Assembly (NCBI RefSeq): GCF_014873145.1
Contig: NZ_JADBEK010000001.1
Span: forward strand, 2,666,001-2,730,000
DNA from: Nonomuraea angiospora
Lineage (GTDB): Bacteria > Actinomycetota > Actinomycetes > Streptosporangiales > Streptosporangiaceae
Direction: 5' to 3'
DNA: 64,000 nt
The notes under the pieces are model-generated. The model was not told the DNA's origin, did not search any database, and saw only the letters and a program-made list of their open reading frames with translations. The translations under genes and the position numbers were made by a program. Shown piece by piece: positions 3,572 through 34,363 of the stretch; positions within the stretch are counted from its first letter, which is position 1, and each line of letters begins with the position of its first letter.

Positions 3572-3573
3572 AG

Positions 3574-3589
3574 TTTATCCATTGGAAAA
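3574..3589. promoter_or_regulatory. Candidate TetR operator (imperfect palindrome)
   Basis: TTTATCCATTGGAAAA reads as TTTwTCCA/TTGGAwAAA with seven of eight arm positions paired. It lies between the divergent TetR and amidohydrolase starts, immediately upstream of the regulator's GTG. Position and symmetry suggest an autoregulatory operator. There is no second copy in the gap. Confidence 0.4.
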
Positions 3590-3658
3590 GATTGCTGGCG
3601 GTGCCGTGTTGCTTCGTACATGGTCGCAGTCAGCTCGCGACGGCGGAGGGAACGACTC

Positions 3659-7039: not shown

Positions 7040-7097
7040 TGCGCCTTCTCGGATGAGGAGCCACAGCCGGTGCGGGACCTTGCCCGGCGGCGAGGCC

Positions 7098-7172
7098 AGA
7101 AGCACCCACGGGCAGCAGTCGCGCTGCGGCGAACGTGTTGGTCACGGTGAAATAAGCCAGGCGAAGAGGCAC
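7098..7172 (-). pseudogene. N-terminal stump of an integrase-type transposase
   Basis: The minus strand reads PLRLAYFTVTNTFAAARLLP. This resembles the conserved start (LRLAYLxVTNxxALLRLLP) of a common actinobacterial family of rve-type transposases. The similarity stops abruptly. No inverted repeats or remaining body were found. The same family recurs as a different fragment at 20037-20279. Confidence 0.45.
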
Positions 7173-19980: not shown

Positions 19981-20036
19981 CGTCCTGCCACAGCCGGGAG
20001 CATCAACGTAACGGCTGACCTTAGTTGTTGAAGTGG

Positions 20037-20279
20037 TCAGGCCGGCCGTGTGCCGCTCGAAAATTGTGTTCGCACGATCAACGCCTTGATCAGCCGGCGG
20101 GTGCCGCGCCGTCCCGGGCGCCGCCTGCCGGGGCAGGTCCATCTACGTGCCACGAGGTTGCGATGCCAGCGCAAGATCGTCACTGGAGCGACCGGGAACA
20201 CCTCCACCCACTGACGGCGGTGGACCAGCCGCGACAACGCCGCCGCCGCGCCGATGAAAGCGACCACGGCGGCGACCAC
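20037..20279 (-). pseudogene. Integrase-type transposase fragment
   Basis: The minus strand reads VEVFPVAPVTILRWHRNLVA then RRWTCPGRRRPGRRGTRRLI. This is the conserved stretch before the rve catalytic domain in a widespread actinobacterial transposase family (PDTVLRWHRxLxARR...RPGRPRT). The catalytic domain itself is absent and the frame stops after 80 codons. No inverted repeats were seen. A start fragment of the same family is at 7098-7172. Confidence 0.65.
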
Positions 20280-20418
20280 GTCGCGAACCCCCGGACCGCT
20301 CGCCTCCGCGATCGCGAGCAGGTGGCCGACGGGCCATCTCCATTCGCGCTGGGCGCATGCCGCCGGAAAGGTCGCCGTCAGGGAAATCGCCGTCAGAGCG
20401 TTCGCCGCCGGGGGACGG

Positions 20419-21144
20419 TCACGTGACGCTGCCCGCCGGCTTCCTGCGGGTGCGCCGGTCGGGCACCGGGGAACGGCCGGCGGCGTGATCGGCGAAGGCG
20501 TCGGCGGCTGTGGCGACGTCGCCTTCGCGCAGCAGCGTGACCAGGCGGCCGTGCTCGTCGGCCATCGCCCGCCAGTCGCCCTCGAACAGCGGGTCGGCGA
20601 TGGCGCGCAGCGCGCGCAGGTTGGGTTCGAGTACCTCCCACATGCGGGTCAGGAACGGGTTACCGGCGATCTGGACGACCCGGGTGTGGAAGGCGATGTC
20701 GACGTCGCGGAACCGGCCGACGTCGTTGACCTCCACGGCCTCGCGCATCTCGGCGACCAGCTCGCCCAGCTCGCCGAGCTGTTCGGCGGTGATGCGCTCG
20801 GCAGCCATGGTGGCGGCCAGCCGTTCGAGCGGCTCGCGGACCTGGCGGGCGTACTCGGCGTCCTGGGTGGAGATCTCGACGACGAAGTTGCCGCGCCGCG
20901 GCACGTGCACGAGCAGGCCCTCGCGGGCGAGCTGCTTGACGGCCTCGCGGACCGGCGCTTGACTCACTCCGAGACGGCGGGCGATCTCCGACTCCACCAC
21001 GCGGTCGTTCGGCGCGAGGTCGCCTTCGACGATGGCCTGCCTGAGCAGTTCGTACACCCGATCGGAGATCAGAGTGGGGCGAACGGAGTCTTTGCTCGTG
21101 GCCAGCCGCGAGGCGAAGCCGCTCACTTCCGGTGTCGATGCCAT
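20419..21144 (-). CDS. GntR-family regulator, FCD (FadR) subfamily
   Basis: 241 residues, ATG 21144 after a GGGGAA site. The winged helix (VYELLRQAIVEGDLAPNDRV, then ARRLGVSQAPVREAVKQLAR) is followed by an FCD domain whose metal or ligand residues are visible in FRDVDIAFHTRVVQIAGNPF and ADEHGRLVTLLREGD. FCD regulators of this kind respond to sugar acids or related metabolites. It stands at the left end of the fucoside cluster. A half-separated copy of the shared operator (21193-21217) lies 49-73 bp upstream of its start. It is the best candidate for repressor of all the promoters that carry the TATCGAT motif. Confidence 0.9.
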   Translation of the reverse strand: MASTPEVSGFASRLATSKDSVRPTLISDRVYELLRQAIVEGDLAPNDRVVESEIARRLGVSQAPVREAVKQLAREGLLVHVPRRGNFVVEISTQDAEYARQVREPLERLAATMAAERITAEQLGELGELVAEMREAVEVNDVGRFRDVDIAFHTRVVQIAGNPFLTRMWEVLEPNLRALRAIADPLFEGDWRAMADEHGRLVTLLREGDVATAADAFADHAAGRSPVPDRRTRRKPAGSVT

Positions 21145-21192
21145 GTGTTCCCCATCATGCGCTGTCGCGTCCCCCTGTTCATCATAAGAGTG

Positions 21193-21217
21193 ATCATCGC
21201 TTAGCAGGTATCGATGG
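21193..21217. promoter_or_regulatory. Cluster operator, copy 1 (interrupted)
   Basis: ATCATCGCTTA and TATCGATGG are both present but separated by GCAGG, unlike the contiguous form of the other copies. It lies upstream of the GntR start and overlaps the end of the esterase gene. It may be a weaker autoregulatory site. Confidence 0.45.
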
Positions 21218-22192
21218 TGACAACCGGCCGGCCAGCCAGGCGAGCTTGACGACCTCGTGGTCGGGGCCGCCGCCCTCGTGGTCGTTGAACGGGTAGACGC
21301 TGATCTGCTTGTCGCCGGCCGGCAGCGCGGCGCGCTCCCCGTAGTGGTTGAAGGCCGCGTACACGGTGGACGGCGGGCAGATGCGGTCCATGAGGCCGAC
21401 GGAGAACAGCGCGGGGGCCGTGGCCCGCCGGGCGAGGACGGCGGCGTCGAAGTAGGACAGCGTGCGCATCACGGTCTCCGCGTGCGCGCGGTGGAGCTTC
21501 ACGTACCGGGTGATCTCCACGTAGGGGGGCTGGTCGGTGAAGGTGGCGGCGCGCGGGAAGCAACACAGGAACGGCACGTCGGGCAGGACCGCCAGCAGGC
21601 GGGGCGCGAGGCCGGCCGCGGCGAGGGCGATGCCGCCGCCCTGGCTGGTGCCGGTCACCGCGACCCTGTCCGGGTCCACCGCCGGGTGGGCGCGCACGGC
21701 CGCCACGGCGCGCACCGCGTCGGTGTAGAGGCGGCGGTAGTAATAGCGCTCCGGGTCGAGCACGCCGCGGGTGAGGAACCCGGGCGCGGCGACGTCGCCG
21801 GTCGCGACGTCGGGGTCGGGGGTGTCGGCCCCCTGGCCGCGGCTGTCCATGACGAGGTGCGCGTAGCCGGCGCACGCCCAGAGCCGCTTCTCGTGCGGCA
21901 CGCCGCGCCCGCTGCCGTAGCCCAGGTACTCGACCACGGCGGGCAGCGGCCCGGTCCTGGTGACCGGCAGGTGCAGCCAGCCCCGGACGGGATGGCCGCC
22001 GTAGCCGGCGAAGGTGACGTCGAAGGTGTCGATCGTCGCCAGGCCGTTCGCCACCGGCTCGGCCGTCATCGCCAGGTCGAAGGCGTCGCTCTCGGCGAGA
22101 CTCTTCGCCCAGAACGCGTCGAGGTCGGGTGGCTCCGGCAGAGCCGGCCGGTACTGCTCAAGCTGGTCAAGCGGCAGATCGAACTGTGCCAT
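21194..22192 (-). CDS. Acetyl xylan esterase / cephalosporin-C deacetylase family (CE7)
   Basis: 332 residues, start ATG 22192. The family layout is a hydrophilic N-terminus with PPDLDAFWAKSLAES, the oxyanion strand VVEYLGYGSGRG, the RGQGAD motif, the nucleophile elbow VTGTSQGGGIALAAAGL (catalytic serine), a late GLMDRICPPSTVYAAFNHY (aspartate) and NDHEGGG (histidine). CE7 enzymes remove acetyl groups from short oligosaccharides inside the cell, and none shows here a signal peptide. In this cluster it would deacetylate imported oligosaccharides before or after the fucosidase acts. The shared operator lies 10-27 bp upstream of its start. Confidence 0.9.
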   Translation of the reverse strand: MAQFDLPLDQLEQYRPALPEPPDLDAFWAKSLAESDAFDLAMTAEPVANGLATIDTFDVTFAGYGGHPVRGWLHLPVTRTGPLPAVVEYLGYGSGRGVPHEKRLWACAGYAHLVMDSRGQGADTPDPDVATGDVAAPGFLTRGVLDPERYYYRRLYTDAVRAVAAVRAHPAVDPDRVAVTGTSQGGGIALAAAGLAPRLLAVLPDVPFLCCFPRAATFTDQPPYVEITRYVKLHRAHAETVMRTLSYFDAAVLARRATAPALFSVGLMDRICPPSTVYAAFNHYGERAALPAGDKQISVYPFNDHEGGGPDHEVVKLAWLAGRLSPSIPAKR

Positions 22193-22201
22193 CGCCCACC
22201 A

Positions 22202-22219
22202 ATCATCGCTTATCGATCG
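22202..22219. promoter_or_regulatory. Cluster operator, copy 2 (esterase promoter)
   Basis: ATCATCGCTTATCGATCG, 10-27 bp upstream of the esterase ATG and overlapping the end of the lactonase gene. It matches the consensus ATYATCGSYTATCGATNG. Confidence 0.65.
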
Positions 22220-23076
22220 TCAACCGATGCATCGAAGCAGGGCCCCCGATCGTTGTCAACCTGAGGCATCAGGCCGTACGCGCGCCTGGCGGTGCCGCTC
22301 AGCACGAGCCGGCGACCGGCGGCGTCCAGCCCGGCCAGCCCGCGCCGGGCCAGCCGCAGCGAGGCGGCCCGAGAGCCGCGGGCCAGGCAGATCGGCCAGT
22401 CGGAGCCGATCATGCACCGGCCGGGGCCGAACTCCCCGGCCGCGTGCGCGACCAGGGCGGCCACCCGCTCCTCGGGCACGCCGTGCTGCTGGGTGAGCAG
22501 GCCGGAGATCTTCATGAACACGCCGGACACCCGGGCCGCCCGCCGCACCTGCTCCCGCCACTCCCCCGGATCGGCGGCGGCGAGGTTCGCCGGGTTGCCG
22601 AGATGATCGACGATCACGGTCAGCCCGGGGTGGCGGGCCGCGGCCTCGGCCGCCGCTGGGACGGCCGCGTGGTGCAGGTTGACTTCGAGCGCGACGCCGT
22701 GCCGGGCCAGGACGGGGACGAGCGCCCGCGCGCCCGGCGGCGTGGCCTCCCACGAGGCGCCGCCGAGCCGCATGCCGTTCGGCCGGGTGCGCGCCAGCAG
22801 TTCGGCGAAGCGCGCCGGGCCGAGCCCGGCGCAGGCGTTGAGGTTGCCGACGTGGCCGAGGAGCAGGCCGGGGTGGCGCAGGCGCAGGTCGGGCAGCAGG
22901 ACGTTCTCTGCCCGGTCGCCCCGGGACGCCTCGACCAGGATCGCGCCGGTCAGCCCGAGGCCCGCGCCCGACGCGGCCAGGTCGTCGGCGGTGAACGTCC
23001 GGTGGTACGGCGACCCCGGCCGGATCCAGGGATAGCCCTGGTCGAGGTCCCAGAGGTGGACATGGCAGTCGATCAC
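22210..23076 (-). CDS. Amidohydrolase-2 family protein, probable sugar-acid lactonase
   Basis: 288 residues from GTG 23076, chosen because CGGAG stands 5 bases upstream and the protein then begins MIDCHVHLW, exactly as in the family. An ATG at 23121 would overlap the operator. Further motifs are EASRGDRAENVLLPDL, the VIVDHLGNP metal histidine, GVFMKISGL and IGSDWPICL (late aspartate). Amidohydrolase-2 members in sugar clusters hydrolyse fuconolactone, rhamnonolactone or galactarolactone. With the aldo-keto reductase and a fucosidase beside it, L-fuconolactonase is the most economical proposal. It is divergent from the 630-residue protein and shares its operator. Confidence 0.82.
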   Translation of the reverse strand: MIDCHVHLWDLDQGYPWIRPGSPYHRTFTADDLAASGAGLGLTGAILVEASRGDRAENVLLPDLRLRHPGLLLGHVGNLNACAGLGPARFAELLARTRPNGMRLGGASWEATPPGARALVPVLARHGVALEVNLHHAAVPAAAEAAARHPGLTVIVDHLGNPANLAAADPGEWREQVRRAARVSGVFMKISGLLTQQHGVPEERVAALVAHAAGEFGPGRCMIGSDWPICLARGSRAASLRLARRGLAGLDAAGRRLVLSGTARRAYGLMPQVDNDRGPCFDASVDDR

Positions 23077-23121
23077 GTCGGCTCCGTGTTGACAGGCGTA
23101 TTCGGGCTCAAGAAGATTCAT

Positions 23122-23139
23122 ATCATCGGCTATCGATGA
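23122..23139. promoter_or_regulatory. Cluster operator, copy 3 (divergent promoter)
   Basis: ATCATCGGCTATCGATGA in the gap between the divergent lactonase and the 630-residue gene, 16 bp before the latter's ATG. It could control both directions. Confidence 0.65.
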
Positions 23140-23154
23140 ACGATTGGTGTTCTC

Positions 23155-25047
23155 ATGCGCATCTCACACCCGCCGGCGCTGCTGGCGAGCCGCACCGTGA
23201 CCGACCCGCCCGCGTGGGCCGGGCTGCAGCGCGAGCTGTTCGCCGCGCAGGACAAGGCCTGGCGGATCTTCGCCGACCGCTACACCGAGGGCGACGGTCG
23301 GCTGGTCTTCCGCGACCGGCTCGGCCAGGGGCTCGACGGCCGCGACGGCGTGGACGACTTCTACGAGGCGTTCTTCAACTGGCCGACCCTCTACCTGCTC
23401 GGCGGCAGCGACGACGTGCTGGCCGCGGCCCGCAGGCATTGGCGGGGCGTCACCGCGCAGCTCGCCGAGATGGGCATGCTGGTGGACGGCTTCGAGCGCG
23501 GCTACGACTGGTTCCACCAGGGCGAGGGCCTGCTGCTGTTCTACGGCCTCTGTCTGGCCGAGCCTGAGGACGGCGAGCTGAGGGAGCTGGCCACCCGCTT
23601 CGCCGACCTCTACCTGCCCGGCGGCCCCAACTACGACCCCGAGCACCGGGTGATCCGTGCGCCGCACAACGGCGCCGCGGGGCCGCGCTGGGGCTTCAGC
23701 GACCACGACGTCTACTTCCCGTGGAGCCTGGCGCTGCGCCCCTACGGCCTGCCGCTCGACTGGATCGCCGAGGCCGCCCCCTTCGACGACCTGGCCGCCG
23801 ACCCGGCGCGGGCCCGCGCGTATGGCAAGGCGATGTGGGAGCGCATGGGTCGCGGCGACACGATCGTCAACCTGGCCGCGACCAGCCTCGTCGCCAACGC
23901 CTACCTCCTCGGCGGCGAGGCGCGCCACGCCGCCTGGGTGAGCGAGTACGTGGACGCCTGGCGGGAGCGGCTGGACGGCCGCGAGATCGTCCCGGACAAC
24001 GCCGGCACACACGGCGTCGTCGGCGAGCACCTGGACGGTCGCTGGTACGGCGGCCACTACGGCTGGTCCTGGCCGCACGGCCTGCCGCCCGTCGGCACCG
24101 CCGCGATCGTCGGCGCGGCCAACGCCGCGCTGCTCACCGGCGACCGCTCCTACCTCGAGCTGGCCCGCAACCCCCTGGACGCGGTGCTGCGCGAGGCGGC
24201 ACCCCGGCGGCCGGCCGAGGTGACCACGATCACCAAGCGCTGGCGGCCCCACCTGCGCGGGCTGGCGGACGAGCCGACGCTGCTGGCCCCGATGCGCCGC
24301 GACGACTCCGGCTGGTTCGACCACAACGTCATGCCGACCCAGCTCCCGGTCGCCCTGTGGCACTTCAGCAGGGACTCCGCCGACCGGGAGCGGATCGACC
24401 GGCTGCGGGAGGCGTCGAGCTGGGACTGGACGGCGGTGCACAGCCAGCGCACCAAGGAGGAGTCGGGCCACGAGGAGCCCTGGTACGAGTACCTCGCCGG
24501 CCGCAACCCCGGCTACCCCGAGCGGATGCTGCGCAGCGCCGCCGACGTCTGCGCCGAGCGGGTCGCCGCGATCGAGAACGACCCGGTGGACCCGGCCGTC
24601 GGGCCCGACGCGTTCGGCATCCACGACTGGCAGGACCGCAACCCGGTCGTCACGGAGGCGCTCCTGCAGCTCACCACCGGCTCGCCGCAGGTGCTCTACA
24701 ACGGCGGCCTGGCCCAGATGCACGTGCGCTACTTCGACGCCGGGCGCCGCCGCCCCGGGCTGCCGCCGGACGTGGCGGCGCTGGTGTCCGCCATCGACCC
24801 GGAGCGCACGGTGATCGAGCTGGTCAACCTGGGCGGCGCGGCGTGCTCGCTGGTGGTGCAGGGCGGCGCGTTCGCCGAGCACCGCCTCGACGCGGCCGGC
24901 GCCGACGACGAGCCGCCCCGGCCGGTCGGGGGCCCGCACGTCGGCGTCCGGCTGCCGGCCAGGACGCAGGTGCGGCTGACGCTGGCCATGACGCTGCACG
25001 CCGCCCGCCCCGCCTGCGCGACGCCGCCGTGGGAGGTGGCGGGATGA
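23155..25047 (+). CDS. Unrecognised 630-residue cytosolic protein of the fucoside cluster
   Basis: No family can be named with confidence. The protein has no signal peptide or membrane segment. Residues 30-440 are helical and rich in aromatic and acidic residues: YDWFHQGEGLLLFYGLCL, WGFSDHDVYFPWSLALRPYG, DNAGTHGVVGEHLDGRWYGG, HYGWSWPHGLPPVGTAAIVG. This suggests an (alpha/alpha)6-barrel of the kind used by glycoside hydrolases, lyases and dehydratase/isomerases. Candidate acids and histidines sit in SDHD, GTHGVVGEH and DRWYGGHYGW-like clusters. A C-terminal beta-rich domain (TVIELVNLGGAACSLVVQGG) follows. The gene overlaps the aldo-keto reductase start (ATGA 25044) and carries the shared operator, so it acts in the same pathway. 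Confidence 0.75.
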   Translation: MRISHPPALLASRTVTDPPAWAGLQRELFAAQDKAWRIFADRYTEGDGRLVFRDRLGQGLDGRDGVDDFYEAFFNWPTLYLLGGSDDVLAAARRHWRGVTAQLAEMGMLVDGFERGYDWFHQGEGLLLFYGLCLAEPEDGELRELATRFADLYLPGGPNYDPEHRVIRAPHNGAAGPRWGFSDHDVYFPWSLALRPYGLPLDWIAEAAPFDDLAADPARARAYGKAMWERMGRGDTIVNLAATSLVANAYLLGGEARHAAWVSEYVDAWRERLDGREIVPDNAGTHGVVGEHLDGRWYGGHYGWSWPHGLPPVGTAAIVGAANAALLTGDRSYLELARNPLDAVLREAAPRRPAEVTTITKRWRPHLRGLADEPTLLAPMRRDDSGWFDHNVMPTQLPVALWHFSRDSADRERIDRLREASSWDWTAVHSQRTKEESGHEEPWYEYLAGRNPGYPERMLRSAADVCAERVAAIENDPVDPAVGPDAFGIHDWQDRNPVVTEALLQLTTGSPQVLYNGGLAQMHVRYFDAGRRRPGLPPDVAALVSAIDPERTVIELVNLGGAACSLVVQGGAFAEHRLDAAGADDEPPRPVGGPHVGVRLPARTQVRLTLAMTLHAARPACATPPWEVAG

Positions 25048-25949
25048 GCGTCGCGCTGCCCAGGCTGGGCCTCGGCACCGCGCCCATCGGCAACCTCTTC
25101 GCGGAGGTGAGTGAGCGGGACGCCGCCGCCACGGTGGCGGCCGCCGCGGCCGAGGGCATGACGTACTTCGACACCGCCCCGCGCTACGGCCACGGGGTGG
25201 CCGAGGACCGGCTCGGCCGGGCCCTGGCGAGCGGCGCGGCACCCGGCGCGGTGATCTCGACGAAGGCCGGCTGGCTGCTGCGGCCCGGGGAGCGGGTGGT
25301 CACCGACTGGACCGAGCGCGGCCTGCGCGAGTCGCTGGAGTCGAGCCTGCGCCGGCTGCGCCGCCCGGCGGTGGACGTGCTGTTCCTGCACGACCCGGAC
25401 GACTTCCGCGAGGAGATCCGGCGCACCGGCTACCCGGCGGCGCGCAGGATCCGCGAGGAGGGGCTGGCGGGGGCGATCGGCTTCGGGATGAACCACTGCG
25501 AGCCGCTGGCGGCGTACGTGGCCGAGTTCGAGCCGGACGTGGTCCTCATCGCCGGGCGGTTCTCGCTGCTCGACCACGACGCGCTGACGACCCTGCTGCC
25601 GCTGTGCGCGAAGACCGGGACCACGGTCGTGGTGGGCGGGGTGTTCAACACCGGGCTGCTGGCCGACCCGCGGCCGGGCGCGATGTTCCACTACCGCGAG
25701 ACGCCCCCGGACGTGCTGGCGCGAGCGCGGCGGTGCCGGGCGGTCTGCGCGGAGTTCGGGGTGCCGCTCGCCGCGGCGGCGGTGCGGTTCCCGTACCTGC
25801 ATCCGGCCGTGGGGTCGGTGGTGGTGGGATGCCGGTCGGCGGACGAGGTGCGCGCCAACGCGGCGGCGGCGCGGGCCGAGATCCCGCCGGAGCTGTGGCA
25901 CCGCCTCGCCGCGGAGGGCTTCGTCCCGCCCGAGCTCCTGGAGGCATGA
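25044..25949 (+). CDS. Aldo-keto reductase, probable aldose (L-fucose-type) dehydrogenase
   Basis: 301 residues, ATG 25044 overlapping the preceding stop, with GGGAGG upstream. The AKR tetrad is visible: D43 and Y48 in TYFDTAPRYGHG, lysine in ISTKAGW and histidine in LFLHDPD. The C-terminal NAD(P) site is VVVGCRSADEVRANAAA. RYGHGVAEDRLGRAL and the overall look match the D-threo-aldose / L-fucose 1-dehydrogenase subgroup. It would oxidise free L-fucose (or a like sugar) to the lactone, the substrate of the neighbouring amidohydrolase. The sugar specificity is inferred from context. Confidence 0.85.
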   Translation: MSVALPRLGLGTAPIGNLFAEVSERDAAATVAAAAAEGMTYFDTAPRYGHGVAEDRLGRALASGAAPGAVISTKAGWLLRPGERVVTDWTERGLRESLESSLRRLRRPAVDVLFLHDPDDFREEIRRTGYPAARRIREEGLAGAIGFGMNHCEPLAAYVAEFEPDVVLIAGRFSLLDHDALTTLLPLCAKTGTTVVVGGVFNTGLLADPRPGAMFHYRETPPDVLARARRCRAVCAEFGVPLAAAAVRFPYLHPAVGSVVVGCRSADEVRANAAAARAEIPPELWHRLAAEGFVPPELLEA

Positions 25950-26007
25950 CCCCCCACCGTGACCGGGCCCGCCGTGACCGGGCCCGGCCGGTCCCGGGGC
26001 GCCGGGG

Positions 26008-26802
26008 TCAGCCCGCGTCCCGGGACGCCAGGTACTCCTCCAGCCCGGCGCCGGTCAGCGGGTAGTAGTCGGACAGCCGGCCGCCCTCGTCCAGCCGCCG
26101 CCGGGCGAACTCCTCGCGGTCCTGGTGCAGCAGGGAGTCCTCGGCCAGCGCGACGGCGCTGCGCTGCGGCACGACGACCGCCCCGTCCTCGTCGGCGACG
26201 ATGAGGTCGCCGGGCGTCACCAGCGCGCCGCCCACGCCGACCGGCACGTTGAACGCCGACGGGAACAGCTCGGTCTGCGAGGCGTAGTGCGGCGTCACCC
26301 CCGTGCACCAGATCGGCACGCCGAGGGCGCGCACGCGCGCGGCGTCGCGCACCCGCCCGTCGACCACGATGCCCGCGCCGCCGCGCAGCTTGAAGTAGCG
26401 GACCAGCATGTCGCCGAGGCAGCCGGTGAAGTGGCTGGCGTGGGCCGACACGACGAGCACGTCACCCGGCCTGATGGACTCCAGCACCGCCCACAGCGCG
26501 GTCTTGCGCTCGGCGTCCTCCTGCTCGCCGCCGGAGAAGACGTCCTCCCGCTGCGGGAGGAACTGCAGCGTGACCGCTCCCCCGGCGACGCGGACGTCCG
26601 GCTCGCGGTGCAGCGGCACGGGCCCGTCGATGAAGGTGCGGGTGATGCCCATCTGGTGCAGCTTGGCGCAGGCGGTGGCGGCGCTCACGCCGCCGAGCGC
26701 CGCCACCATCCGCGCGGTCGGCCGGACGAAGGGCGAGGACTGCGCCGGCCCCAGCATCGTCTCGTAGGTCTCCTGCTCAACGCCGTGCATGTTCGTGTTC
26801 AT
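26008..26802 (-). CDS. RraA-like class II pyruvate aldolase / decarboxylase family protein
   Basis: 264 residues, ATG 26802 after GGTGAGAG. The RraA fold signature is present: GDVLVVSAHASHFTGCLGDM (the GD strand and active-site loop), VRYFKLRGGAGIVVDGRVRD (arginine and aspartate that bind pyruvate and metal) and VTPGDLIVADEDGAVVVP. RraA homologues include 4-hydroxy-4-methyl-2-oxoglutarate and related aldolases, and they recur in sugar-acid clusters where they cleave 2-keto-3-deoxy acids. In this cluster it could split the keto-deoxy acid made from L-fuconate into pyruvate and lactaldehyde. It is divergent from the fucosidase with a shared operator between them. Confidence 0.82.
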   Translation of the reverse strand: MNTNMHGVEQETYETMLGPAQSSPFVRPTARMVAALGGVSAATACAKLHQMGITRTFIDGPVPLHREPDVRVAGGAVTLQFLPQREDVFSGGEQEDAERKTALWAVLESIRPGDVLVVSAHASHFTGCLGDMLVRYFKLRGGAGIVVDGRVRDAARVRALGVPIWCTGVTPHYASQTELFPSAFNVPVGVGGALVTPGDLIVADEDGAVVVPQRSAVALAEDSLLHQDREEFARRRLDEGGRLSDYYPLTGAGLEEYLASRDAG

Positions 26803-26828
26803 GCGATGCTCTCACCCAACCGTCGACA

Positions 26829-26846
26829 ATTATCGCCTATCGATGG
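26829..26846. promoter_or_regulatory. Cluster operator, copy 4 (divergent promoter)
   Basis: ATTATCGCCTATCGATGG between the divergent RraA-like and fucosidase genes, 27-44 bp from the former's ATG and 52-69 bp from the latter's GTG. Confidence 0.65.
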
Positions 26847-26897
26847 TAGATGTAACTGCCGATCAGCGAGGGCTGTCAACCGTGGGAGGAGACGCCG

Positions 26898-28157
26898 GTG
26901 TCAGGCGGATCGGCAGAGTGGTTCCGGGCGGCGCGGTTCGGATTGTTCGTTCACTTCGGCTTGTACAGCCTCGCCGCGCGGCACGAGTGGGTGCGCAGCC
27001 GCGAGGCCATGTGGGACGCCGACTACGACCGCTACCTGGAGCGGTTCGACCCCGACCTGTTCGACGCCGCCGCCCTGGCCAGGGCGGCGCGCGAGGCGGG
27101 GATGCGGTACGCGGTGCTGACCGCCAAGCACCACGACGGCTTCTGCCTGTTCGACTCGGCGCTGACCGGCTACACCTCCGTCCGGGCGGCCGGCCGCGAC
27201 CTGGTCGCCGAGTTCGCCGAGGCGATGCGGGCGGAGGGGCTGCGGGTGGGGCTCTACTACTCGCTGCTGGACTGGCGCCATCCCGACTTCACCGTCGACC
27301 GGTACCACCCGCTGCGCGACAGCCTGCCGCCCGAGGAGGCGGCCGGGCGCGACATGGCGCGCTACCGGGCGTACCTGCACGGGCAGGTGCGGGAGCTGCT
27401 CACCGGCTACGGCCCCATCGACCTGCTGTTCTTCGACTTCACCTATCCGGCGAAGGGGCCCGCCGAGTGGGGCGCGGCGGAGCTGATGGCGATGGTCCGG
27501 GAGCTACGCCCGGGGATCGTGGTCAACGACCGGCTCGGCATCCCGGGTGACTACGTCACGCCCGAGCAGTACCAGCCCGACGCGCCGCTGACCCGCGACG
27601 GCGCCGAGGTCCTGTGGGAGGCGTGCCACACGCTGAACGGCTCGTGGGGCTACGACCGCGACAACCACGACTACAAGAGCCCGGACCTGCTGGTGCGCAT
27701 GCTCGTGCAGTCGGTCGCCTGCGGCGGCAACCTGCTGCTCAACGTCGGCCCCACCGGGCGGGGCGCGCTGGACCCGCGGGCCGCCGAGACGCTGCGCGCG
27801 ATCGGCGCGTGGACGTCCCTGCACGCGCGGGCGGTGCACGGCGCCGGGCCCAGCGTGTTCGAGCCGCCGCCGAACGCGCTCTACACCCAGCGCGGCGACC
27901 GGCTCTACCTGCACCTGCTCGCCTGGCCGCTCAAGCACGTCCACCTGCCCGGCCTGGCCGGCCGCGTCCGGTACGCGCAACTGCTGCACGACGGCTCGGA
28001 GGTGCGCATGCAGGAGCTGGACGGCGGCGACCACGAGCACAACAACCTCGCTCCCCCGGGCCGGGAGCCGGGCACGCTCACCCTCACCCTGCCGGTGGTC
28101 CGGCCGGACGTGCTGCTGCCGGTCGTCGAGCTCGTGCTGCGCGGCGAAGGGCACTGA
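26898..28157 (+). CDS. GH29 alpha-L-fucosidase, cytosolic
   Basis: 419 residues from GTG 26898 with GGGAGGAG 7-14 bases upstream. GH29 landmarks: FGLFVHFGLYSL near 14-25, KHHDGF at 77-82 (substrate-binding histidines), YYSLLDW near 120, and the nucleophile Asp180 in IDLLFFD. The late block is also typical: WEACHTLNGSWGYDRDNHDY and GGNLLLNVGPTGRGALDP. A short C-terminal beta domain follows. No signal peptide is present, so imported fucosylated oligosaccharides are the likely substrate. The acid/base cannot be assigned from sequence alone, as it varies within the family. Confidence 0.93.
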   Translation: MSGGSAEWFRAARFGLFVHFGLYSLAARHEWVRSREAMWDADYDRYLERFDPDLFDAAALARAAREAGMRYAVLTAKHHDGFCLFDSALTGYTSVRAAGRDLVAEFAEAMRAEGLRVGLYYSLLDWRHPDFTVDRYHPLRDSLPPEEAAGRDMARYRAYLHGQVRELLTGYGPIDLLFFDFTYPAKGPAEWGAAELMAMVRELRPGIVVNDRLGIPGDYVTPEQYQPDAPLTRDGAEVLWEACHTLNGSWGYDRDNHDYKSPDLLVRMLVQSVACGGNLLLNVGPTGRGALDPRAAETLRAIGAWTSLHARAVHGAGPSVFEPPPNALYTQRGDRLYLHLLAWPLKHVHLPGLAGRVRYAQLLHDGSEVRMQELDGGDHEHNNLAPPGREPGTLTLTLPVVRPDVLLPVVELVLRGEGH

Positions 28158-28202
28158 CGCCGCACGAAATGGCTCTTGAACAAGTGAGGCAGCCGAAATA
28201 AC

Positions 28203-28217
28203 ATCTCCTATCGATAG
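28203..28217. promoter_or_regulatory. Cluster operator, copy 5 (importer promoter)
   Basis: ATCTCCTATCGATAG, 25-39 bp upstream of the binding-protein ATG. It keeps the core CCTATCGAT of copy 4 and is followed by a loose inverted continuation GACGATTAATGAT. Confidence 0.6.
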
Positions 28218-28241
28218 ACGATTAATGATGGAAGTAGGCAC

Positions 28242-29483
28242 ATGAACAGGCGATTGCTGGCGGCCGCGGTGACGGCCCTCGTGTTAACGGCGGCGTCGGC
28301 GTGCGGTGGCGGCGGCGGCACGGAGGGCGGAGCGGGCAAGACCACGCTGCGGATGATCGTCAACATCACGCCCAACCTCACCGAGCAGTTCTGGAACGGG
28401 TTGTTCGACCGTTACGAGGCCAAGCACCCGGACGTGACCGTGCAACTGGAGCTCACCGGCACCATCGAGGCCGAGGCCAAGCTGCGCCAGGACCTCGCCG
28501 CGGGCGACCCGCCCGACATCGCACAGCACGTGGTGCCCACCCCGGAGACCGCCGAGCTCTTCGTGGACCTGTCCGGCGAGCCGTGGGCCGCGAAGACGCC
28601 GCTGTTCGACGAGTACGCGATCGGCGGCAAGCACTACGTGGTCGGCGTCGGCGAGCAGATCCAGTCGCTGGTCTTCTACAACAAGAAGGCGTTCGCCGAC
28701 GCGGGCCTCGACGCCACCAAGATCCGCAACATCGCCCAGTTCGAGGAGGCGATGGGCAAGCTCAAGAAGGCCGGGCTGGTCCCGCTGCAGACCGCCGGCC
28801 AGTGGGTGACCGGGGCGCAGTTCAGCATGCTGGCCGACGCGGGCGTGCTCACCGCCGACCCCGACTGGACGGTCAAGCGCAAGAAGGGCGGGACGACCTT
28901 CGCGGCCAGCGGCTACAAGCGCTACTACGAGCTCTACCGGTCCTGGCTCGAGCAGGGCTTCCTCGACAAGAGCGCGCTCGGGCTGCAGTACCCCGACGGC
29001 CAGGCCGCCTTCCTCAAGGGCGGCTCGGCGATGTACATCATGGGCTCGTACTTCGTGCCCGCGGCCGACGAGGCGGGCAAGAGCGACGACATCGGCGTCT
29101 TCCCCGTGCCGTCCGACGGCGCGTACCCGCCCGGCCAGTTCGGCAACATGGCGCAGCCGTACACGGTGGTCGCGCAGTCCAAGCACCGCGAGGCGGCGAT
29201 CGACCTGGTCGAGTGGCTGGTGACCGACGAGGAGGCCATCAAGGTCCAGCTCGCCGCCGACGGCAACCTCCGCAAGGGGTTCGCCTACGACGTCTCCAGC
29301 CTCGGCGACGGCGTGCAAAAGGTCCTCGACGAGGCACCGACCGTCCTGGTCAAGCAGGGCGACCGGCAGCCGGTCCAGGGCTACGCCGACGAGCTGAACA
29401 AGCAGATCCAGTCCCTGTTCACCGGCGCCTCGGCCGATGACGTCGCCACGAAGCTGGACCAGTGGTGGGACTCGCAGGGCTGA
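28242..29483 (+). CDS. Sugar ABC transporter substrate-binding lipoprotein
   Basis: 413 residues, ATG 28242 after GGAAG. The signal peptide ends in a lipobox, ASAC with the lipidated Cys21, followed by a glycine-rich linker. The body is a family-1 solute-binding protein: FWNGLFDRYEAKHPDVTVQL, KLRQDLAAGDPPDIAQHVVP, VFYNKKAFADAGLD, FLKGGSAMYIMGSYFVPAAD. Such proteins bind oligosaccharides at the outer face of the membrane and deliver them to two permeases. It is the first gene of the importer operon. The operator just upstream links it to the fucoside regulator. Confidence 0.93.
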   Translation: MNRRLLAAAVTALVLTAASACGGGGGTEGGAGKTTLRMIVNITPNLTEQFWNGLFDRYEAKHPDVTVQLELTGTIEAEAKLRQDLAAGDPPDIAQHVVPTPETAELFVDLSGEPWAAKTPLFDEYAIGGKHYVVGVGEQIQSLVFYNKKAFADAGLDATKIRNIAQFEEAMGKLKKAGLVPLQTAGQWVTGAQFSMLADAGVLTADPDWTVKRKKGGTTFAASGYKRYYELYRSWLEQGFLDKSALGLQYPDGQAAFLKGGSAMYIMGSYFVPAADEAGKSDDIGVFPVPSDGAYPPGQFGNMAQPYTVVAQSKHREAAIDLVEWLVTDEEAIKVQLAADGNLRKGFAYDVSSLGDGVQKVLDEAPTVLVKQGDRQPVQGYADELNKQIQSLFTGASADDVATKLDQWWDSQG

Positions 29484-30424
29484 GCGCGGACTCCGTGCGG
29501 GTGGCCGCGCGGAGTCCCGGTTCCGATCGCAGCACGCCGGGCGGCCGGCGCCGCCGCCTGCGCGAGGCGGCACTGAGCGCGGGCATGCTCGCCCCCGCCG
29601 TCGTGGTGTACACGGTCATGACGATCGTCCCGGTCATCGTGGCGCTGTACCTGAGCCTCACCGACTGGAACGGCTTCTCCTCGGCGGCCTTCGTCGGCCT
29701 GGACAACTACGCCCGCCTGTTCGACGACCCGGACACCACCCGGGCCGCGGTGGTCACCGTGATCGTGGCCTTCTTCGGATCGGTGGGGATGCTCGGACTG
29801 GGCCTGGTCTACGCGCTCCAGCTCAAGGAGCGGAACTGGGCCAACTCCTTCTTCCGCACCCTCGCCTACTACCCGCACGTGATCAGCTCGCTCATCCTGG
29901 GCTTCCTGTGGAGCGCCATCCTCGGCACCAACGGCGCGATCAACAACACCCTCGCCGACCTCGGCGTCGGCCCCGTCGGCTTCCTGTTCGACGAGAACCT
30001 CGCGGTGATCACCCTGGTGGGCGTCATCGTGTGGGCGGGCTTCGGCTTCAACGTGGTGCTGTTCGTGGCCGGCCTGCAGACGGTGCCGCGCGAGCTCGTC
30101 GAGGCGGCGCAGATCGACGGCGCGTCGCGACGGCAGATCAACCGCAGGATCGTCATCCCGATGATCGCGCCGGTGGTCACCGTCGCCATGGTGCTCAACC
30201 TGGTGGGGCTGATCAAGGTGTACGACATCGTCGTCAGCCTCACCGACGGCGGCCCGGCCGGGGCCACCGAGACCATCGCGTACGTCATCCTCACCAGGTC
30301 GTTCGCCGGCACGGACGTCGGCTTCGCCACCGCCCAGGCCGTGGGCCTCATGATGGCCTCCGCGGCGCTGTCGGTCGTCGTCACCGCCCTGCGCAACCGG
30401 CAGGACCGGGCCGCGGCGAGCTAA
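29462..30424 (+). CDS. Sugar ABC transporter permease (MalF type)
   Basis: 320 residues if GTG 29462 is used, overlapping the binding-protein gene by 22 bases. GTG 29495 is an equally plausible start. Six transmembrane helices are visible, beginning with LAPAVVVYTVMTIVPVIVAL, and the cytoplasmic EAA loop reads ELVEAAQIDGASRRQINRRI, which docks on the ATPase. The family N-terminus with LSLTDWNGFSSAAFVGLDNY is typical of MalF/UgpA permeases. It pairs with the next gene. No ATP-binding subunit is encoded in the window, so a shared multi-sugar ATPase (MsiK type) from elsewhere is expected. Confidence 0.92.
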   Translation: MVGLAGLSADSVRVAARSPGSDRSTPGGRRRRLREAALSAGMLAPAVVVYTVMTIVPVIVALYLSLTDWNGFSSAAFVGLDNYARLFDDPDTTRAAVVTVIVAFFGSVGMLGLGLVYALQLKERNWANSFFRTLAYYPHVISSLILGFLWSAILGTNGAINNTLADLGVGPVGFLFDENLAVITLVGVIVWAGFGFNVVLFVAGLQTVPRELVEAAQIDGASRRQINRRIVIPMIAPVVTVAMVLNLVGLIKVYDIVVSLTDGGPAGATETIAYVILTRSFAGTDVGFATAQAVGLMMASAALSVVVTALRNRQDRAAAS

Positions 30425-30442
30425 GTACCCCAGGAGCCTTCC

Positions 30443-31297
30443 ATGACCCCCAACCCCCGCGCCGGCGCGCGGCGGCCTTCGCCGGTCCGCGTCGCGCTGC
30501 TGACCCTGCTGTTCGCCGTCATGACCGTGCCGGTCTACCTCCTGCTGGTCAACAGCTTCAAGTCGCAGCAGGACATCCAGAACAGCCCGTTCTCGCTGCC
30601 GTTCGCCAGGATCTCGCTGGACCACCTGGCGGCGGCGGTGCAGAGCCCCCAGTACAACGTGCTCAAGAGCTACGGCTTCACGCTCGTGCTGGTGGTGGCC
30701 GTCGATGTGCTGTGCATCCTGTTCGCCGGGCCGGCCGCGTACGTGATCGCGCGCAGCCTCAAGCGGCGCACCCAGTTCCTGCTGCTGTTCTTCCTGGCCG
30801 GCACGTTCATCCCCGCCTCGGCCCTCATCGTGCCGCTGATCTACGTGCTGCGCGCGATCGGGCTGGGCAACACGGTGACCGGGCTGATCCTGCACGACGT
30901 CGCCATGACCCTGCCGGTGAGCATCTTCCTGTTCGTCGGCTTCATCCGGACCGTCCCCCGGGACATCGACCACGCGGCCGCGATCGACGGGGCCGGGCGG
31001 CTGCGCACGTACTGGCAGGTCATCTTCCCGCTGACCCGACCGGCCGTGATCACGGTGCTGATCCTCAACTCGATCGGGATCTGGAACGACTTCATCAGCC
31101 CCCAGATCCTGCTGAGCCCCGGGTCCGGCACCTACACGGTCACCACCGCCATCTACGCCGGCATCAGCCAGTACTCCACCGACATGACCAAGGTCTTCCC
31201 CAACCTCCTCCTCGCCGTGGCCCCGGTGATCATCTTCTTCGTCTACATGCAGCGGCACATCATCAGCGGCCTGACGGTCGGCGCGCTCAAGGGCTGA
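30443..31297 (+). CDS. Sugar ABC transporter permease (MalG type)
   Basis: 284 residues, ATG 30443 with CAGGAG 6-11 bases upstream. Six transmembrane helices begin with VALLTLLFAVMTVPVYLLLV. The conserved EAA-like loop is IDHAAAIDGAGRLRTYWQVI, and the closing segment YMQRHIISGLTVGALKG is the typical MalG C-terminus. Together with the preceding permease it forms the translocation path for the oligosaccharide bound by the upstream lipoprotein. Separated from the secreted beta-helix protein by only 36 bp, which suggests one transcript. Confidence 0.93.
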   Translation: MTPNPRAGARRPSPVRVALLTLLFAVMTVPVYLLLVNSFKSQQDIQNSPFSLPFARISLDHLAAAVQSPQYNVLKSYGFTLVLVVAVDVLCILFAGPAAYVIARSLKRRTQFLLLFFLAGTFIPASALIVPLIYVLRAIGLGNTVTGLILHDVAMTLPVSIFLFVGFIRTVPRDIDHAAAIDGAGRLRTYWQVIFPLTRPAVITVLILNSIGIWNDFISPQILLSPGSGTYTVTTAIYAGISQYSTDMTKVFPNLLLAVAPVIIFFVYMQRHIISGLTVGALKG

Positions 31298-31333
31298 GCG
31301 GGCCCCACCCCCCACCTCCGGAAAGGCGGAAGA

Positions 31334-34300
31334 GTGTCCATCACACGACGGCTGCGCGCCACCCTGGCGACTTGCCTCCTGTTATCCCTGGCGGCGACGC
31401 CCGCGGTGGCTCACGCGGCGGTGCCCGCGGTGGCTCACACGGAGAGCGCGCCGCGGCCGCCAGGAAAGATCCTCTACGTCGCGCCCGGCGGTGACGACGC
31501 CGGCAGCGGGACGAAAGCCCGCCCCTTCCGCACCCTCGAAGGGGCCAGGGACGCGATCAGGAAGCTCAAGGCCCGCCACGGCCTGCCCCCCGGCGGGGTG
31601 ACCGTCTACCTACGCGAAGGCGCTTACCAGCGGAGCGCGTCGTTCGCGCTCGACCAGCGGGACTCCGGCACGGCGAAGGCGCCGGTCGTCTACCGCTCCT
31701 ACCCCGGCGAGACGGCCCGGCTCACCGGCGGGCGGCAGCTCGACCACGACAGCTTCACCCCGGTGACCGACGAGGCCGTGCTGCGGCGCATCGTGGACGA
31801 GCCGGCCCGGGGCAAGGTGCTGCGGGCCGACCTCAAGGCCCTCGGCCTCACGGACTACGGGCAGCTCAGCCGGCACGGCTACTGGAAGGCCAACGACGTC
31901 AGCACCGTCCCGCCCATGGAGCTGTACGTGGCGGGCCAGGGCATGACGCTGGCCCGCTGGCCCAACGAAGGCACCGTCCAGATGAACCAGATCATCGACG
32001 CCGGGCCCACCGTGAAGGACGCCGACCTGCAGAACCGCGGCGGCACGTTCAGCTACGGCTACGACCGGCCGCGCCACTGGACGCAGGCCGAGGACGTCTG
32101 GCTGGACGGCATCTTCGGCTACAGCTGGGAGTGGTCGTACAACAAGATCGCCGCGATCGACCCCGAGGCGAAGACGATCACCCTGCGCTACGGCGAGATG
32201 TCCGGCCTGATGAAGTCGTGGTACCCGGACTTCCACTTCGCCCAGAACCTGCTGGAGGAACTGGACGCCCCCGGCGAGTACTACATCGACCGGGCCGAAG
32301 GCGTGCTGTACCTGGTGCCCAACGCGGCCTTCCGCACGAAGCAGGGCGACATCACCGTCACCATGCTCAAGGAGCCGATGATCAAGACCGCCGGCGCCTC
32401 CCACGTCTCCTTCCAGGAGCTGGCGCTGGAGTACGGGCGCAGCCTGCCCGCGGTGATCCTCGGCGGCAGCCACGTCACCATCGAGCGCAGCGACATCCAG
32501 AACTTCGCCGACGGCGGCGTGTACATCAACTCGGCCGGCCGCTACGTCTACGACGGCATCCCGGACAAGAACAAGGGCCGCGACCACGCCGTGGTGTCCT
32601 CCACGATCCGGCACGTGGGCGGCGTGGGCGTCGTCCTCAACGGCGGCGACGACAAGACCCTGGAGCCGGGCCGCAACCGGGTGGAGAACTCCCACATCCA
32701 CGACTTCGCCTACTACCACAAGGCGTACAACCCGGGCGTGATGTTCGACGGCGTCGGAAACACGGCCCGCGGCAACGAGATCCACGACGCGCCGCATCCC
32801 GGCATCATCGTCCACGGCAACGACCACCTCATCGAGTACAACGACATCTACGACATCTGCCAGGACTTCCAGGACCTCGGCGCGATCTACATGAACGCCG
32901 GCATGACGCCGCACGAGCGGGGCACCGTGATCCGGCGCAACTACTTCCACCACATCGGCGAGGGGCGCGACGGCGTCGAGGGCGTCTACCCCGACAACCT
33001 CACGATGGGCCTGACGATCGACGAGAACGTCTTCTACCGGATGGGCAACGACGCCATCAAGAGCGGCTCCGGCGACCACATCAAGACCAGGAACAACATC
33101 TTCGTCGACACCCACGTCCCGTACGACAACTACGAGATGTGGATGGGCGACCAGCCGGACAACACGGTGGACAAGAACTACCTGCCCGCCTGGCGGAAGC
33201 TGTTCGAGGAGAACGGCGGCTTCGCCGGCACCCCGTACGCCGCGAAGTACCCCGAACTGCTCACCTTCTTCGACGAGAACCACTACTTCCCGGCGAAGAA
33301 CTTCTTCGAGAACAACCTCGTCTGGAACCCCGAGCTGGCCCGGGCTTCCAGCGTCAACCAGCACGGCGCGCGGGACGTCAAGAACCTGCTCAACTACGCC
33401 GGCAACTGGGTCGCCGACCGGAACCCCGGCTTCACCGACTGGCAGGCCGGCGACTTCTCCCTGACCGCGGACGCCGAGGTCTTCCAGCGCATCCCCGGGT
33501 TCAAGGCCGTCCCGTTCGCCGAGATCGGCACCCACGGCAAGGTCGGGCTGCCGGGCGGGCCCGACCGGATCGAGCTGACCGCCCTCCACCTGCCCGGCGA
33601 CGAGCTCACCGTCCCGCTCGGCAAGACGGTGTCCGTCCGGGCCGAGCCGGTGCCGTGGAACGCCACCGACCAGGCGGTGACGTACGCGAGCAGCGACCCG
33701 GCGGTGGCCACGGTGAGCGCCGGCGGCGCGGTCACCGCGCTCATGCCGGGCACCACCACCGTCTCCGTCGCCTCCAAGGCCCACCCCGAGATCACCGACA
33801 CGGCCACCGTCACCGTGAGCAAGGGCGACGGCGTCATGCACGCCACCGACTTCGAGTCCGGCGGCAACGGCTGGCCTGTCGATCCCAACCGCGCCATCGT
33901 CGCCGACGCCGCCGGCAACCATTGGTACCGGATCGTCAAGGGCGCCAACGGGCTGCTCGACCGCGCCTTCACCGACTACGCGCTGTCGTACCGGCTGCGG
34001 ACGCCCGCGCAGGTGCCCGAGGGGGCCGTCCTCATCATGTACGACCGCCAGGGCGGCGCCGGCGGCGGCTACGTCCGCTACCGGCACGCGGCGGCCGGGC
34101 CGACCTGGACGCTCTACGACGCGCAGTGGCGGACGCTGAGCCAGGCCGTCCTGCCGGCCGAGCGCGGCCTGCGCCCCGACACCGTCTACGACGTGCGGAT
34201 GACGGTGCGGGGGGCGTCTGTGAGCGTCAGCGTCGGCGGCGAGGCCGTTCTCGAAGGCGAGAACCCGGCGCACAACCCGTCCGGGAAGGTCGGCTTCTAC

Positions 34301-34363
34301 GCCGAGGGCTTCACGCACCTCGACTTCGACGACGTCACGTTCTCGTTGCCACGGGCGTCCTGA
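31334..34363 (+). CDS. Secreted parallel beta-helix glycosidase, GH141-like, with Ig-like domain
   Basis: 1009 residues, GTG 31334 after GGAAAGGCGG. Residues 1-28 are a signal peptide ending AVAHA. The next part has the GH141 look: ILYVAPGGDDAGSGTKARPF, GVTVYLREGAYQRSASFAL, a GG..L linker, MTLARWPNEGTVQ, then a long right-handed beta-helix with many N-D/G-N turns (PHPGIIVHGNDHLIEYNDIY, DLGAIYMNAG, TIDENVFYRMGNDAIKSGSG). A Big2-type Ig domain (VTYASSDPAVATVSAGGAVT) and a jellyroll-like domain of about 170 residues close it. GH141 members are alpha-L-fucosidases or xylanases, so it would trim the polymer outside the cell. Catalytic residues were not assigned. Confidence 0.82.
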   Translation: MSITRRLRATLATCLLLSLAATPAVAHAAVPAVAHTESAPRPPGKILYVAPGGDDAGSGTKARPFRTLEGARDAIRKLKARHGLPPGGVTVYLREGAYQRSASFALDQRDSGTAKAPVVYRSYPGETARLTGGRQLDHDSFTPVTDEAVLRRIVDEPARGKVLRADLKALGLTDYGQLSRHGYWKANDVSTVPPMELYVAGQGMTLARWPNEGTVQMNQIIDAGPTVKDADLQNRGGTFSYGYDRPRHWTQAEDVWLDGIFGYSWEWSYNKIAAIDPEAKTITLRYGEMSGLMKSWYPDFHFAQNLLEELDAPGEYYIDRAEGVLYLVPNAAFRTKQGDITVTMLKEPMIKTAGASHVSFQELALEYGRSLPAVILGGSHVTIERSDIQNFADGGVYINSAGRYVYDGIPDKNKGRDHAVVSSTIRHVGGVGVVLNGGDDKTLEPGRNRVENSHIHDFAYYHKAYNPGVMFDGVGNTARGNEIHDAPHPGIIVHGNDHLIEYNDIYDICQDFQDLGAIYMNAGMTPHERGTVIRRNYFHHIGEGRDGVEGVYPDNLTMGLTIDENVFYRMGNDAIKSGSGDHIKTRNNIFVDTHVPYDNYEMWMGDQPDNTVDKNYLPAWRKLFEENGGFAGTPYAAKYPELLTFFDENHYFPAKNFFENNLVWNPELARASSVNQHGARDVKNLLNYAGNWVADRNPGFTDWQAGDFSLTADAEVFQRIPGFKAVPFAEIGTHGKVGLPGGPDRIELTALHLPGDELTVPLGKTVSVRAEPVPWNATDQAVTYASSDPAVATVSAGGAVTALMPGTTTVSVASKAHPEITDTATVTVSKGDGVMHATDFESGGNGWPVDPNRAIVADAAGNHWYRIVKGANGLLDRAFTDYALSYRLRTPAQVPEGAVLIMYDRQGGAGGGYVRYRHAAAGPTWTLYDAQWRTLSQAVLPAERGLRPDTVYDVRMTVRGASVSVSVGGEAVLEGENPAHNPSGKVGFYAEGFTHLDFDDVTFSLPRAS

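Follow-up and report, generated by a model that had tools for sequence, protein, structure and literature searches.

A repeated palindrome as the predicted operator of an FCD-type GntR regulator in a candidate fucose-catabolic gene cluster of Nonomuraea angiospora

The FCD subfamily of GntR regulators has the operator consensus TKGT-N3-ACMA, with BioR and NanR as exceptions, and in many FCD groups weaker additional half-sites lie 7-12 nt from the centre; in FadR, Arg35 and Arg45 contact bases (Suvorova et al. 2015, PMC4494728). Here, we analysed a sequence repeated in the promoters of a putative sugar-catabolic gene cluster of Nonomuraea angiospora, within a 64,000-nt stretch of contig NZ_JADBEK010000001.1 (positions 2,666,001 to 2,730,000, forward strand; hereafter the window, whose numbering is used for the cluster). 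We conclude that this sequence is very likely the operator of the FCD-type GntR protein encoded in the cluster itself (20419-21144, minus strand). Its core, ATCG-N5-CGAT, does not conform to a canonical FadR-type operator; the G/C spacing is retained.

The repeated element and its architecture

A preliminary description of this DNA had reported four copies of one operator-like sequence, found nowhere else in the window and standing, together with an interrupted fifth copy, upstream of every transcription unit of the cluster. Scanning the window for the 18-mer ATYATCGSYTATCGATNG with up to 3 mismatches recovered the four copies, at 22202-22219 and 26829-26846 (0 mismatches each), 23122-23139 (1 mismatch) and 28200-28217 (2 mismatches). 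The only other match was a shifted one on the opposite strand at the last of these sites (28208-28225, minus strand, 3 mismatches). In 100 shuffles of the window, the mean was 0.21 matches and the maximum 2. The four copies are real and have no further counterpart in the window. Their placement upstream of every unit was also borne out, except that not all sites are strictly intergenic, since the site at 22205 overlaps the 3′ end of the amidohydrolase open reading frame (ORF). The five sites are:

S1, 21196..21215, upstream of the GntR gene and inside the last codons of the esterase gene: ATCGCTTAGCAGGTATCGAT, an N12 form, with ATCG-N12-CGAT in 8/8 Nonomuraea
S2, 22205..22217, upstream of the acetyl xylan esterase family (AXE1) gene, overlapping the 3′ end of the amidohydrolase ORF: ATCGCTTATCGAT
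S3, 23125..23144, between the divergent amidohydrolase gene and the gene for a 630-amino-acid protein: 20-bp ATCGGCTATCGATGAACGAT
S4, 26832..26851, between the divergent RraA-like and GH29 genes: ATCGCCTATCGATGGTAGAT
S5, 28203..28222, upstream of the ABC transporter operon: 20-bp ATCTCCTATCGATAGACGAT

The core of the element, ATCGNNTATCGAT, has four exact copies in the 13,093,168-base genome, and every one lies in the cluster (22205, 23125, 26832 and, on the minus strand, 28210). Allowing one mismatch adds 24 places genome-wide, 2 in the cluster and 22 outside it; these 22 represent no excess, because shuffles average 0.32 per 64 kb, which for the whole genome predicts about 65. The genome scan that the preliminary description had proposed, with many unrelated matches as the outcome that would count against the motif, thus found the exact core confined to the cluster and fewer near-matches outside it than predicted.

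Eight of the 22 off-cluster places were inspected as candidate distal regulon members, a reading we did not adopt; two of the eight lie inside a long open frame. Near 3.76 Mb (L150), a site reading ATCGGCTAACGAT stands between candidate divergent genes and is a possible distal target; one of these two candidate neighbours has sub-threshold helix-turn-helix (HTH) matches and the other has none. A further site, near 1.33 Mb, follows the 3′ end of a gene whose product has RpiR-type HTH and SIS domains. A non-coding RNA reading of the region was also set aside, there being no Rfam match in 20000-32000.

When the genus was scanned with a symmetrised pattern and orthologous clusters were used to build a weight matrix, the fuller element proved to be a 20-bp imperfect palindrome, ATCGNYTATCGATANNCGAT. 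The sequence first proposed was therefore a truncated version of a genuine repeated element, which extends rightward to a total length of about 20 bp and includes a third half-site. The 20-mer is readable as two overlapping ATCG-N5-CGAT operators offset by 7 bp. The third, right-hand half-site is clear at S3, S4 and S5 (20-mer within 2 mismatches), not at S2; around 71 distinct exact cores, its four positions (17-20) are C in 38%, G in 77%, A in 80% and T in 66%. At S1, the outer half-sites, ATCG-N12-CGAT, keep the spacing of the 20-mer unchanged; the "interrupted" copy at 21193-21217 thus has the form of outer half-sites without the 20-mer centre. In retraining, the weight matrix grew from 7 seeds to 78 distinct 20-mers that include shifted registers, and for this reason its scores only rank sites.

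The 7-bp phase also appears at the loci of related GntR genes, which we grouped as close (67-91% identical to the cluster's GntR), middle (44-57%) and distant (32-40%) relatives. Same-strand ATCG words at a lag of exactly 7 numbered 101, 100 and 34 in the three groups, whereas lags of 8, 10 and 11 gave only 4-9, 16-31 and 5-12. These counts leave out 16 of the 80 loci as redundant; a period-3 signal from coding sequence runs through them, and part of lag 7 comes from the motif itself.

The binding protein and conservation across genera

The proposed binder is:

20419..21144, minus strand, FCD-type GntR regulator: PF00392 (E=5.5e-17) and PF07729 (E=2.4e-27); recognition helix SQAPVREA

Across 54 genomes of the genus, a motif-first search found 14 places that match the 20-mer with up to 1 mismatch, each in a cluster with a GntR of this clade. 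Thirteen of them sit in clusters of 7 of the 8 genomes that have an orthologue of this GntR. The remaining one, a perfect palindrome, is in 1 of the 46 orthologue-less genomes (G040), between the 3′ end of a 43%-identical GntR gene and a solute-binding protein (SBP) gene. A different, distantly encoded transcription factor controlling the same cluster would be compatible with the sequence evidence alone, and beside one of the clusters compared (L070) an ORF reads like a LacI-type regulator by eye. We consider such a factor quite improbable, since the near-20-mers follow the GntR orthologue in this way and since, in other genera and other phyla, related palindromes precede GntR genes of 32-57% identity.

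These related palindromes emerged from a count, without preselection of the word, of all 4-base inverted pairs upstream of GntR genes. Loci with similar or short upstream DNA were dropped, leaving 12/22 close, 34/45 middle and 13/13 distant loci. ATCG-N5-CGAT ranks first in the close group (8/12, expected 0.17). In the middle group, TATC-N7-GATA (6/34), CGAT-N1-ATCG (8/34) and ATCG-N5-CGAT (8/34, expected 0.43, ranking third) lead, and the distant group leads with TATCGATA (7/13) and CGAT-N1-ATCG (6/13). With thousands of word and spacer pairs tested, unrelated palindromes turn up as well, for example ACGC-N1-GCGT in 4/12.

Over whole loci, sites with up to 1 mismatch outnumbered those of a reversed-pattern control by 127 to 4 in the close group (22/22 loci with a site), 103 to 0 in the middle group (37/45) and 43 to 3 in the distant group (12/13). 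In the 400 bp that precede the GntR gene, a site was present at 13/22, 20/45 and 7/13 loci, with the control at 0 in each group. Reversed patterns hold composition, not codon bias, and we therefore also used shuffles, other FCD loci and the orthologue-less genomes. Among 30 FCD-GntR loci examined in this genome, 28 are without a site (up to 1 mismatch), the exceptions being the present locus and a paralogue at 10.856 Mb. The genome has 46 FCD matches, 16 of which are not among these loci; the motif scan covered all 30, and a search for the helix pattern came back empty in 11 of the 30, with some helices off-frame.

The paralogous cluster (L063, 10.846-10.866 Mb) encodes a 50%-identical GntR and homologues of the RraA-like protein, the 630-amino-acid protein, the transporter, the aldo/keto reductase (AKR) and the amidohydrolase. 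Its operator-like site reads ATCGCTAATCGAGTAACGAC, and cross-talk between the two regulons of this genome is possible.

The sites keep their positions alongside the orthologous regulators. Six related species (L056-L059, L061, L062) keep the full set of GntR, AXE1, amidohydrolase, 630-amino-acid protein, AKR, RraA-like, GH29, SBP and permease genes. S2 to S5 are present in 7/7 Nonomuraea clusters with this set, and S1 in 8/8 when L060 is included; the left half-site of S5 is altered in L058. In the 19.5 kb compared, L060 (genome G025) shares with the cluster S1, the GntR gene and an esterase gene that has diverged, and none of the other cluster genes.

Orthologous clusters of Streptomyces, Amycolatopsis, Catenulispora, Hamadaea and Jiangella likewise carry sites in these promoters. 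We counted, over 26 clusters of several genera, N5 sites with up to 1 mismatch within 450 bp upstream of, or 60 bp inside, each gene start; L067-L069 (same genomes as L059, L061 and L062) and the partial cluster L060 were excluded. A site accompanies the 630-amino-acid protein gene in 24/24 clusters, the amidohydrolase gene in 23/23, the RraA-like gene in 25/25 and the GH29 gene in 23/23, counts that are not independent because divergent neighbours (amidohydrolase and 630-amino-acid protein, RraA-like and GH29) share sites. For AXE1, SBP and GntR, the numbers are 15/16, 23/25 and 13/26.

Three further features of the compared loci stand apart from these counts. In L057, the amidohydrolase and AKR genes (3477-4238 and 6161-7121) match in split frames and may be broken or misassembled. 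L070 (16936), L074 (10379), L077 (10977) and L080 (6422) carry, besides the distal site, an extra STCGACTATCGAT followed by YAYTCRCGA, 42-45 nt upstream of the SBP gene. In Nonomuraea gerenzanensis (NZ_LT559118.1, 6184229-6184951), a 97%-identical GntR gene has no annotated feature listed under the match.

We conclude that these sites are very probably bound by the FCD-GntR protein. The co-regulation by this protein that the preliminary description had suggested has strong comparative support, from the occupation of the same promoters across genera, the motif-first search, the lack of sites at 28 of the 30 FCD loci and the same palindrome class upstream of homologous GntR genes. The operator would belong to a clade of FCD-GntR proteins, not to this regulator alone. 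A similar type of site seems to serve many of its relatives, and GntR genes of Bacillaceae are among those with related palindromes upstream.

Promoters, repression and autoregulation

Candidate promoters with 17-nt spacers lie at four of the sites:

22231..22259, minus strand, TTGACA-N17-TTCGAT, AXE1 gene: S2 starts 13 nt downstream; TTGACA in 7/7 Nonomuraea, 33-43 nt before the core
23089..23117, plus strand, TTGACA-N17-GAAGAT, 630-amino-acid protein gene: S3 starts 7 nt downstream; TTGACA in 7/7, 36 nt (6 clusters) or 37 nt (1 cluster) before the core
26851..26879, minus strand, TTGACA-N17-GTTACA, RraA-like gene: the S4 core starts 6 nt downstream; TTGACA in 7/7, 35 nt before the core
28176..28204, plus strand, TTGAAC-N17-TAACAT, transporter operon: S5 overlaps the -10; TTGAAC in 5/7, 27 nt before the core

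If these promoters are correct, the operators fall on the -10 element, the start or the early transcribed region, and therefore in the position of a repressor site. The element could instead be part of the promoter, as a -10 or a sigma-specific sequence, with no repressor involved. The core includes TATCGAT, which fits TAnnnT, close to gene starts, and a generic promoter scan returned only GTTACA-N16-GATAAT at 26856-26829, with S4 between the hexamers and GATAAT inside the element. We regard this as scarcely credible, because a conserved TTGACA or TTGAAC precedes the element at all four sites, and because the element is a 20-bp palindrome whose exact core is limited to one cluster of a 13-Mb genome.

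With the element taken as an operator, the following scheme would account for its position. A GntR dimer would read the half-sites of ATCG-N5-CGAT, with a third half-site 7 bp further on at three of the five sites, and would thereby occupy the -10, the transcription start or the first transcribed stretch at the esterase, amidohydrolase/630-amino-acid protein, RraA/GH29 and transporter promoters and at its own. Bound GntR would bar RNA polymerase; release would follow when the FCD domain takes up an intermediate of the pathway, probably a carboxylate, for example a sugar acid. The suggestion of a sugar acid as the effector comes from FCD biology, and fuconate and 2-keto-3-deoxyfuconate, the sugar acids named in the preliminary description, would be candidates. 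Residues D149, H153, H198 and H220 are invariant in 9 aligned GntR sequences, and this set of one Asp and three His may form the metal site of the FCD effector pocket. The cluster would thus be a local, autoregulated catabolic regulon of a known type.

Autoregulation would act through S1. Of the last nine sense codons of AXE1, which S1 overlaps, seven (TTG, TCA, CCA, ATA, CCT, GCT and CGA; 21194-21223) have a usage of ≤2% in the cluster, and a codon-usage simulation produced ATCG-N12-CGAT in 6.5e-5 of draws. Selection on S1 at the DNA level is therefore likely. S1 might instead be a remnant, or simply the coding tail of the esterase gene, with the GntR gene read from the esterase promoter only; the site overlaps the last AXE1 codons and is without an N5 core, and the two genes are neighbours on one strand. 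We consider this unlikely, if by no means far-fetched, given the rare codons and the simulation, the retention of S1 in 8/8 species, and N12 pairs upstream of GntR in 4/12 deduplicated close relatives (expected 0.17), although full 20-mers also contain N12 pairs. Autoregulation of GntR through S1 is thus likely.

Several observations weigh against assigning the element to the cluster's own GntR. The four promoters were picked by eye, most of their -10 hexamers are weak, and none was recovered by the generic scan. N5 sites with up to 1 mismatch are missing upstream of GntR in 13/26 clusters, 7 of which are Nonomuraea clusters with the N12 form only, and 8/45 middle and 1/13 distant loci have no site at all. 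Inverted pairs with the N5 spacer show no enrichment across the full loci of the distant group (9, vs 14 and 20 at spacers 3 and 6). Genome G025 has the regulator and no 20-mer within 2 mismatches genome-wide. A third GntR of the N. angiospora genome (951139, 39% identity) likewise carries SQAP in its helix and lacks a good site in its vicinity; SQAP alone therefore does not predict the operator. Lastly, the loci were chosen by GntR similarity, so the presence of GntR at them is no independent evidence.

Cluster function and comparison with described regulators

The remaining genes of the cluster are:

21194..22192, minus strand, acetyl xylan esterase family protein (AXE1): PF05448, E=2.9e-104
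22210..23121, minus strand, amidohydrolase, fuconolactonase-like: PF04909; NF052480 at 88.9 bits, under its 400-bit cut-off
23155..25047, plus strand, 630-amino-acid protein, conserved regulon member: PF26099 precomputed for the homologues listed
25044..25949, plus strand, AKR: PF00248
26008..26802, minus strand, RraA-like aldolase family protein: PF03737; NF006093 above cut-off
26898..28157, plus strand, alpha-L-fucosidase family (GH29) protein: PF01120, E=2.7e-82
28242..31297, plus strand, ABC sugar transporter, SBP and two permeases: PF01547, PF00528 and NCBIfam permease matches
31334..34363, plus strand, right-handed beta-helix protein with a Big_2 domain: PF13229, PF02368

The beta-helix gene probably belongs to the transporter operon, because the gap is only 36 nt. 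The annotated amidohydrolase start at 23121 is probably too early and the true start further in, at about 23076, since the alignment of 4/6 relatives begins only at residue 12-13 and the N-terminal extension (23076-23121) contains the candidate promoter that serves the divergent 630-amino-acid protein gene.

The oxidative pathway for L-fucose comprises a fucosidase, a dehydrogenase, a lactonase, a fuconate dehydratase and an enzyme that cleaves ketodeoxyfuconate. The cluster has genes for the GH29, AKR, amidohydrolase and RraA-like proteins, with the lactonase match below cut-off, and the scan of the cluster proteins recognised no family of dehydratases. As judged from its families, the gene set would suit uptake and oxidative breakdown of an acetylated, L-fucose-containing glycan. 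The 630-amino-acid protein gave no Pfam or NCBIfam match in our domain scan; some sources call its homologues linalool dehydratase/isomerase-like, and the gene accompanies this regulator in many of the clusters compared. The protein is a candidate for the missing dehydratase or another step.

By alignment to FadR, Ser52 and Gln62 of the cluster's GntR presumably correspond to FadR Arg35 and Arg45, and Gln62 may be tied to the altered DNA code. SQAP is present in 80/80 GntR homologues compared, which is no independent correlation because SQAP was in a homologue search pattern. A literature search recognised no description of this operator among the papers listed; none held GntR together with ATCGATTATCGAT, and none of those listed held TTATCGATAA. 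RegPrecise lay outside the search, and an earlier prediction is possible. The search also found nothing on SQAPVREA, or on Nonomuraea together with GntR and fucosidase.

We see in the element a cluster-wide operator, very probably that of the FCD-GntR, in a variant of the FCD code common to a wide clade; it would be a useful and testable addition to a known kind. It offers a testable operator for a large group of FCD-GntRs for which we found no described site, in Nonomuraea, Streptomyces, Amycolatopsis, Jiangella, Microbacterium, Bacillaceae and others, and the regulons of such proteins would become readable from sequence. It may also connect an altered recognition helix with an altered DNA code, and ties a conserved 630-amino-acid protein to a predicted sugar-catabolic regulon. 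A broader reading, which we put forward tentatively and with more doubt than confidence, is that FCD-GntRs with the SQAP helix form an old regulator/operator class of Actinomycetota and Bacillota, in which ATCG took the place of TKGT in the code (with Gln for Arg45) and ATCG half-sites in 7-bp phase create two overlapping dimer registers, N5 and N12. If so, a single promoter could host two dimers in competition or cooperation, S1 would be an N12 form whose low affinity is tuned to autoregulation, and the genome of the window would carry two paralogous regulons of this class.

Among the described systems, BioR controls biotin genes, not sugar catabolism. It resembles the present regulator in being an FCD-GntR off the subfamily consensus, and the TTAT..ATAA of its consensus TTATMKATAA resembles TATCGATA, enriched upstream of the most distant homologues (7/13), whereas that consensus is 10 bp long with MK, not CG, at its centre (cited in PMC4494728). 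The VanR-type FCD-GntR Atu1419 shares the FCD domain family, repression, and palindromes over the -10 or between the -10 and -35, and differs in its operator ATGTATACAT, its DNA-looping tetramer and its hydroxycinnamic acid target genes (PMC7797058). NanR likewise has several phased half-sites per operator; these are direct repeats of another sequence, TGGTATAW (cited in PMC4494728), whereas the half-sites of the cluster also form inverted pairs. Compared with the repressors of the TKGT-N3-ACMA type, the cluster core differs in having C rather than G/T at -4 and no fixed T at -2 (PMC4494728). As expected for the FCD subfamily, comparative evidence places a palindromic operator in the own and neighbouring promoters, the own promoter being served by the N12 form in Nonomuraea. 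The likenesses to the TKGT-N3-ACMA repressors described there are an odd-centred palindrome that carries G/C at -3/+3 as well as T/A at -5/+5, a local regulon that would be autoregulated, and extra half-sites flanking the main palindrome (PMC4494728).

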